A DNA stretch of 64,000 bases from Mesaphorura yosii. Its lineage: Eukaryota; Arthropoda; Collembola; Poduromorpha; Tullbergiidae. Where the stretch lies: positions 62,001 through 126,000 of the forward strand of contig WIXG01000180.1 of the NCBI GenBank assembly GCA_009869945.1, given 5' to 3'. Positions within the stretch are counted from its first letter, which is position 1, and each line of letters starts with the position of its first letter. Shown in pieces: positions 29,601-32,600 of the stretch. Made by a program: the position numbers and the translations under genes. Below the pieces are notes generated by a model that was not told where the DNA came from, made no database searches, and worked only from the letters and a program-made list of their open reading frames with translations.

Positions 29601-32600
29601 TTCTTTCTTTTTCTAGAAATCCAACGGAATCGAGAATTCTACAAGAATGCCGACGTGCGACCTCCATTCACATACGCATCGCTAATTCGACAGGTTATTA
29701 ATATTCTCAGAATTATGTTCTCCTGCAACGCAGTCAACTCAATGCAAGGCGGCAGTAGCCGCAATGTTGTAGTCGAATGCGATCTGACACTTGGTTCTAT
29801 TCTCTAAATAGGCAATCATTGAGTCTCCCGACAAGCAGTTGACACTGAACGAGATCTACAACTGGTTCCAAAACACATTCTGCTACTTCCGGAGAAACGC
29901 CGCCACATGGAAGGTATGTCATCGCGACCTCCGTCACTTTCTCTTCTCGTGTGTCACAACAAAAGGCGATGAATGACTGTCAATCCAACTAGAACATTTA
30001 AGTGGCTAGGTGCGAATGACTTGAATGCTTAAGGAGACGAATAGGTGAGACGCGAGACTGCGTTCGGGTGAGCGGAGGAAGCGTAGCGAAATTAAGACGG
30101 TGTGATGACTGGATAGATTTACTAAATTAGACGAAAGGATGACTCGCATAGTTGTAGTGCATAGAATAGAAAGCGTTTGGCTGAGCACATGACACGAAGA
30201 CGCGATACGTGGTCGCTGTTCAGTTCCTGGCACACTTCACGGCGGAGCAGAAATGTATTGTTGTTGATGACGTGGGAAGACTGGAGAGAAGAGCGAGACG
30301 AGACGAGCGAGCGGGATGGAAGATGATGATGATGAAGACGACGAAGGGAACGGAGAAAGAATGGGTTGTTTGCTTTTGCTTAGGCTGCTTCTTAAGATTA
30401 AGTGAGAGTCTTAGACAATATTGACACTGTGAATATGTAAACACCTGACACTGTTTACTCAAAAATGCAACCAATATATATGCAAATGTCCATGAATAAT
30501 GGAGTGCTTTGTGCTCCCAACAGAAAGGTTTTATCTGATTCCAAAGTTTTTGTTACATCTTCTGCCGGGATTTCCTCCGTCCAAAGGACCAACCACGGCC
30601 GCGCCGCTGCCACGAAGAGTCGTTTTTAATATTTATCGAGTTCTTCCTTTGTTATTTCTACTTCGCTTTCAATTCACTACATGTATGTCAAACTGTGATT
30701 AAAGACTCAGGACGCGTATATGTTTCATAATAAAAATAATAAGAAAACAGAGGAGAAAGCGAGACAAGAAACATTTCCCTAGAATCAAACTCCCTTCTCC
30801 TCTGCTCTCCTGGTTTGTATGCTCGACACGGAGATCAGTGCAGCGTACGCGTGAATTTCAATTGCATGAAATGAATTCGGCCATTTACACGCACGTGCAA
30901 ATAACGAGAGTCTGCACTTTGCATAAAGCAAACGCGCATTTGTGCACATTCCGCGAAATGACACTTACCGAAATCTGAGCCTGGTTGAGTTGTTGCTTCG
31001 GATAGACGCGCGTGTGAGCCCTTTGATTTATTAGCATAGGAACTACCGCTGTTTCATGGTTGGTGGAATGATCACGGTTTAATGGTTTTTAATAGCAAGT
31101 GTTTAAGCAGACGGGAATTCACGTCTGTACAGAAATTTTTTTGATTAGATTAGACGGTCAATTTTTGTCATTGAGTTGCATCATTAGTTGGTAATATATT
31201 AGAAGAAAATTACTGCCTGCAATTAGAAATTCTAGATTAGATGCCGAGTAGTTGACGAATTTTACCCAATTTGTTCCGTTTTTGAAAGCAGCAACGGTCG
31301 GCACTTTTTGACCCTTGCTCAAAGAGCTGTAAACTGATTTTCTGATTTTATTTGAGATTGGTTTTATTTGCGTTTGCTTAAAAATGTTGTGTGTCTTCTA
31401 CTTTGTATAGAACGCAGTGCGACACAACCTGTCGCTACACAAATGTTTCATGAGAGTGGAGAATGTCAAGGGGGCAGTTTGGACAGTCGACGAGGTGGAA
31501 TTTTATAAGCGTCGGCCCCAGCGGTGTAGCACGGGGTATGTGCTCGCTGTGACATTTGTCAACATAAACAAACATTTCTCTTGCTCTCTTTTCGATTCTT
31601 ACACTCTTTTTACTCTAATATTTGTATTTGTCATTAATCTAACACCAGTCCAGCAATCCTGTCAGACTTTTCAATTCTATTTTACTCTCTCGTTTCTCAT
31701 TCTTACATATTGCCGCTTCTAGCAGTCGTTTTTGCCTCGCTTTTGCTCAAACTTCGCGTTTAATGGGACGCAAAACGCAGGTACACCGTGCTTGACGCCT
31801 GCCTGTGCATGTATTTACGCTCAATTCAGTAAAAGTCGAGTCCTTAGACCAAAGTGCTCGTTCCGAAACGATGACTATGATTTGGAGATCTGTGGACCAG
31901 GTAAGCGCATTCTGGCAGCGATTGCTGGTGGTCCTAAAGGTCAAGGTCTGGAACCGACGGTCTCTTAAAAGTCTGCTTTGTGTAAGGACTCTTTTCGCTG
32001 TGGATCTTTTTCTGTACTTTTGACTTTTTCTCTCTTTGCTCTGTGTGTTTTCTCTCTATTTCCTTCTCGTGGTGTATGTACACAGAACGCCATCCGCACC
32101 AATCTCTCCCTGCACAAGTGTTTTGTACGCTATGAAGACGATTTCGGATCCTTCTGGATGGTGGATGATGCGGAGTTTGTCAAACGTCGTCATCTCTCTC
32201 GAGGACGACCTAGGAAATATGACCCAACCCCATCACCTTCTCCATCATCCCACCATCCGCCTGCACAGTAAGCACAGCCAACCTTATCACACGTCAGATA
32301 GATTAGCAACTCTTCCTATAAAGTACTTCTTCCTATCAACCAACGTCGAACATAACCGGCAAGGCCATGATTGTAGGAAATTTGTTTTAAGAAGCAGGCA
32401 CCAAATCCCAAGCAATTTCGTTAATGAATACGAAAATTTTGGCTTGGAGTTGATATAGAGAAAGAAACTTCGTTAGGAAAATCGGCCCCCATAAACTACG
32501 CATCGTAAATTCCTCGTCAGGTTGTCCGCTTTCGTTCCTCAAATTTTTGACATTTTTCTTGTCACTTTCATCCGCGTTTACTATTTGAATTTTTAATCCA

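Follow-up and report, generated by a model that had tools for sequence, protein, structure and literature searches.

Two alternative second-half forkhead exons with a shared 3' tail, very probably spliced mutually exclusively, in the FoxP locus of the collembolan Mesaphorura yosii

Can one FoxP gene supply two DNA-binding domains by exchanging the second half of its forkhead? The question is raised by a locus in Mesaphorura yosii (Collembola, Tullbergiidae), lying within a stretch of 64,000 nucleotides (the window; NCBI GenBank assembly GCA_009869945.1, contig WIXG01000180.1, positions 62,001 to 126,000 of the forward strand, numbered here from its first letter). A preliminary description of the window had proposed that FoxP carries two interchangeable second-half forkhead exons, here called A and B, which are joined to one common downstream exon. 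Splice sites, exon phases, a FOXP-CC match and the nearest forkhead structures, all of them FOXP1-4, support this proposal. Judged from the sequence, this FoxP gene very probably contains an exon pair of ancient tandem origin whose two members are spliced in a mutually exclusive manner.

By its domains the gene, on the plus strand like every feature of it described here, is FoxP. The forkhead was compared with solved structures after splicing to either exon A or exon B, and in both searches the seven best chains are from FOXP1, FOXP2, FOXP3 and FOXP4, after which the matches drop to HNF-3-beta (A search) or FOXG1 (B search). Upstream of the forkhead there is a FOXP-type zinc finger followed by a leucine zipper. 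The zinc-finger coding stretch is found at 25647-25723 (donor CTCAA/GTACGA); its exon starts further upstream, and its last codon is completed by the next exon. The zipper stretch (HLNTEH...MNKQQ) is found at 26351-26501 (acceptor CCGCAG/ACATTT), in an exon that extends further downstream. The junction 25723/26351 is in frame, and the joined peptide, of which the two stretches form the first and second parts, matches the Pfam family FOXP-CC (PF16159) over model positions 1-69 of 69 with an E-value of 1.3e-36. A Q-rich coding region, seen by eye near 23404-25030, precedes the FOXP-CC part, and two of its frames gave no Pfam match. The exon list begins at the zinc finger. The first half of the forkhead is encoded by two exons, 29617-29693 (CTAG/AAATCC and CGACAG/GTTATT) and 29812-29913 (AATAG/GCAATC and TGGAAG/GTATGT). 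The second of these is common to both isoforms, holds Pfam Forkhead positions 13-49 in a genome-wide search with that family, and ends in phase 0 with the residues ...FRRNAATWK, its 3' end reading ACATGGAAG/GTATGT. Three coding exons downstream of A and B are shared: 33174-33249 (76 nt, acceptor TTACAG/AGGAAC), 33328-33422 (CTAG/GCTGCT and CCGAG/GTACGC) and 33500-33821, which ends with the stop codon TAA at 33819-33821. The first AATAAA past this stop is at 35516.

Frames that resemble other gene families are also present in the window. Two frames on the minus strand (44843-46462) match the MYG1 exonuclease family (PF03690), and a 419-aa open frame on the plus strand (51163-52419), apparently one long exon, matches Peroxin-3 (PF04882). 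A major facilitator superfamily frame (PF07690) lies at 48198-48557 on the plus strand and a phosphoglycerate kinase frame (PF00162) at 57417-57806 on the minus strand. The region 38067-38666 on the plus strand we take to resemble a CDC14-type phosphatase, from HCK and a further motif in neighbouring frames; the single frame scanned there had no Pfam match.

Exon A occupies 31411-31535 (125 nt; TATAG/AACGCA...CACGGG/GTATGT) and encodes the canonical second half of the forkhead (...KRRPQRCST). Exon B, the alternative second half, occupies 32086-32267 (182 nt; CACAG/AACGCC...GCACA/GTAAGC) and consists of 60 open codons with intact splice sites. As the preliminary description had it, both begin in phase 0 immediately after FRRNAATWK, both end in phase 2 and both fit the exon at 33174. 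Both have GT-AG sites. Whichever of A and B precedes it, the exon at 33174 contributes the one base missing from the split codon, and the frame is then open through 33328-33422 and 33500-33821 to the TAA. One position has to be amended: 32271, given as the end of the alternative region, is not the end of exon B (32267), and marks instead the end of an in-frame TAA (32269-32271) that overlaps the GTAAG donor and is met if this donor is unspliced. Such a transcript would have B as its terminal exon, and the stop directly past B leaves room for a minor form of this kind. What distinguishes the FoxP isoforms of Drosophila is an alternative last exon that carries a stop of its own (PMC6372147, available part), and by analogy exon B could be read to 32271, polyadenylated within 32268-33173 and given its own tail. 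We consider this arrangement unlikely. The donor of exon B, GTAAGC, is a normal one that agrees with the consensus at 6/9 positions, the same score as the donor of exon A, and its phase fits 33174, from where an in-frame tail common to A and B follows. Moreover, AATAAA and ATTAAA are absent from 32268-33173, and among six weaker variants scanned there, only TATAAA (32317) and CATAAA (32490) occur. Our preferred reading is that B, like A, is an internal exon spliced to the common tail.

The reading frame bears directly on whether the two exons could be used together. Either A alone or B alone keeps the frame into 33174. Because A ends in phase 2 while B begins in phase 0, inclusion of both shifts the frame, and a stop is reached 29 nt into the 76-nt exon 33174-33249, leaving 142 nt before the last coding junction. 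If neither exon is included, a stop is reached 54 nt into the same exon, with 117 nt left before that junction. An mRNA with such a premature stop is, by an established rule, subject to nonsense-mediated decay, and the distances of 142 and 117 nt suggest that both the double and the skipped mRNA should be degraded in this way. Duplication of the recognition helix had been put forward as the bar to double inclusion. It stands as one bar, though not the sole one, the frame with its stop in the 33174 exon being the firmer. Double inclusion and double skipping are thus both ruled out by frame as predicted from the exon phases, in addition to the helix duplication. Steric exclusion through a short intron was set aside, since the intron between A and B is 550 nt long. 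The frames do give truncated products, and retention of the intron after 29913 is predicted to add 20 codons before a stop ending at 29976 (positions 29914-29976), a form that resembles the intron-retention isoform of the fly; such forms are mentioned for both fly and bee (PMC6372147, available part). It is therefore conceivable that exclusivity is loose, with A+B, skipped or 29914-31410-retaining transcripts being abundant and either lowering FoxP output or supplying a forkhead-less partner. We think it quite improbable that this describes the locus, and such forms would supplement the exclusivity of A and B rather than replace it. Mutually exclusive use of A and B is the reading that we retain.

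The relationship between the two exons is apparent from their products. Aligned without gaps, A and B are identical at 22 of 35 residues, with a score of 120 that none of 2000 shuffles reached (best shuffle 39), which rules out exon B as a chance open reading frame. The helix reads NAVRHN in exon A and NAIRTN in exon B. At the nucleotide level just 65 of 125 positions are identical, and this suggests that the duplication is old. Scanned alone, exon A passes the Pfam Forkhead cut-off of 27 with 32.0 bits, while exon B alone, at 21.5 bits (E 2.6e-4), falls under it. This is probably why, of these two exons, only A is among the 24 matches that the Forkhead family gave across the genome, and exon B can thereby escape annotation. 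When exon B was compared with the 93 Mb genome, two of the three candidates scored matched at E 0.001 or better, namely exon B itself and exon A. Since both of these matches fall in the present locus, a second FoxP gene is rejected as the source of exon B. Relatives of exon B were also sought outside animals: 18 pattern matches in IMG/VR contigs and 267 in prokaryote contigs yielded none that was confirmed, and plasmids yielded no match to a 45-aa query. These empty results are expected for an exon that belongs to an animal gene.

Which isoform type does each exon represent? The first half of the forkhead joined to exon A matches FOXP1 best (2kiu, E 1e-48), with FOXP2 and FOXP4 also among the best; joined to exon B it matches the same chains more weakly (2a07, E 1.2e-39). 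The three best chains aligned to the B-spliced forkhead all read NAVRHN at the helix position. In its sequence, then, exon A is the canonical forkhead half. For Drosophila isoform B, 23 residues including WMVDDN can be read from published oligos (PMC4070984 and PMC7776582, available parts), and exon B is identical at 22 of these, exon A at 16. A guide targeting exon 18b of human FOXP1 (PMC8189919, available part) encodes DEFGSF, to which exon B corresponds at five of six residues (DDFGSF) and exon A at one of six (NVKGAV). Judged from these short oligo-derived fragments, exon B probably corresponds to the exon of fly isoform B and to exon 18b of human FOXP1. These comparisons also bear on whether exon B might be a relic that is no longer used, its frame open by chance or its function lost only recently. 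Nothing speaks directly for this apart from the score of exon B alone, which is under the Forkhead family cut-off, and 60 open codons, intact sites and a core 22/23 identical to the fly isoform make it highly improbable. The near identity of this core suggests purifying selection until recent times.

Exon B also carries a basic arm. The AT-hook-like motif RGRPRK, specific to isoform B, is encoded at 32200-32217 and adjoins the winged helix on its C-terminal side. No other RGRP(R/K) occurs in any of the six frames of the window. Its 36-aa tail scanned alone scores 15.1 bits, below the Pfam AT_hook cut-off of 17.4, and whole exon B is not listed for that family. Among the matches listed in a literature search on AT-hook and FOXP1, none concerned the FOXP1 18b tail by its title or the start of its abstract.

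A candidate for a control element is the intron between A and B itself (31536-32085). YGCY is the Muscleblind motif, and motif tests covered YGCY, TGCT, TGCATG, YCAY and pyrimidine hexamers in each of seven regions. The 550-nt intron holds 17 YGCY compared with 10.3 expected, a count that none of 300 dinucleotide shuffles reached, this being one of 35 tests. Of 1269 sliding windows of 550 nt over the 64 kb, only four are as extreme for YGCY, and three of the four overlap the A-B intron. In the 250 nt after exon A, 14 of 300 shuffles reached the observed YGCY count; in the 250 nt before exon B there is no enrichment (5 vs 3.5 expected, 65/300 shuffles). Within the intron TGCT is not enriched (8 vs 5.4 expected, 45/300), and the count of pyrimidine hexamers was reached by 1 of 300 shuffles. 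In human, MBNL1 represses FOXP1 18b (PMC8189919, available part) and does so by direct intronic binding (PMC4978528, available part). The YGCY-rich intron could thus be a Muscleblind-type control region. We speculate that the splice choice trades major-groove reading for a forkhead combined with minor-groove, AT-rich binding through RGRPRK, under Muscleblind control at this intron. This is a doubtful proposal as it stands, although, if true, it would mean that Muscleblind and FoxP form a regulator-target pair conserved from Mesaphorura yosii to human FOXP1.

Taken together, the explanation that we favour is as follows. Splicing to exon A would give a FoxP forkhead of the canonical type, whose recognition helix reads NAVRHN. 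Splicing to exon B would give one whose helix reads NAIRTN, whose wing is altered and which is extended by the basic RGRPRK. The zinc-finger/zipper body and the C-terminal tail would be common to both forms, and the choice may swap DNA-binding specificity inside one protein. Frame arithmetic would enforce exclusivity, with A+B or skipped mRNA presumably lost to nonsense-mediated decay, and a Muscleblind-type repressor may act at the A-B intron. Both A and B are presumably used in RNA, and binding presumably changes with the choice. The histidine of NAVRHN, which is replaced in the NAIRTN of exon B, contacts bases in FOXP2. Alternative splicing of FoxP across Bilateria, together with gene duplication, was reportedly treated by Santos et al. 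in 2011 (Mol Biol Evol 28:237), who are said to have proposed that the exon was duplicated in tandem at the base of Bilateria and that its alternative form has lost base contacts.

In the literature surveyed, a full-text search for both helix peptides found no paper, and among the matches listed for FoxP splicing and tardigrades none was on tardigrade FoxP by its title. FOXP is named 0 times in the main text of a paper on tandem-duplicated exons (PMC9741552); in the available part of a paper on panarthropod Fox genes (PMC8918179) FoxP occurs four times and 'splic' not at all. The statement in the preliminary description that insects have a pair of forkhead isoforms is correct (PMC7776582 and PMC6372147, available parts), and the precedent reaches beyond insects to human FOXP1, where exons 18 and 18b are alternatives in the forkhead (PMC11701043, available part).

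As far as the available parts of these sources go, the closest comparisons are as follows. In Drosophila FoxP (CG43067) exon 6 has two alternative splice partners, exons 7 and 8 (PMC7776582), and the order, exon 7 then exon 8, is the same as that of A then B. A genomic primer from the fly reads TGGAAGGTAAAA, which by our reading fits an exon 6 that ends at the same place after WK. The fly differs in that its A and B exons are the last two, with separate stops, whereas here they are internal and three 3' coding exons are common to both. In human FOXP1, exons 18 and 18b are mutually exclusive and 18b keeps the reading frame (PMC11701043), as is predicted for A and B, and 18b has DEFGSF where exon B has DDFGSF. 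Since the frame is kept in 18b, the human tail is probably also shared. The switch from 18 to 18b changes the preferred binding from GTAAACAA to CGATACAA (PMC11701043). Human FOXP1 is unlike the present gene in being a vertebrate paralogue, and it is in human that regulation by MBNL1 and in pluripotency has been tested. For the honeybee AmFoxP, two isoforms affecting the forkhead are mentioned (PMC6219247), which is a further likeness. Splicing of the exon pair is therefore already published for insects and human FOXP1, and the Mesaphorura yosii locus, by its sequence, is a well-preserved example of an ancient arrangement and not a new kind. The internal position of A and B and their shared tail, at this one locus, would suggest that the alternative-last-exon layout of Drosophila is derived.
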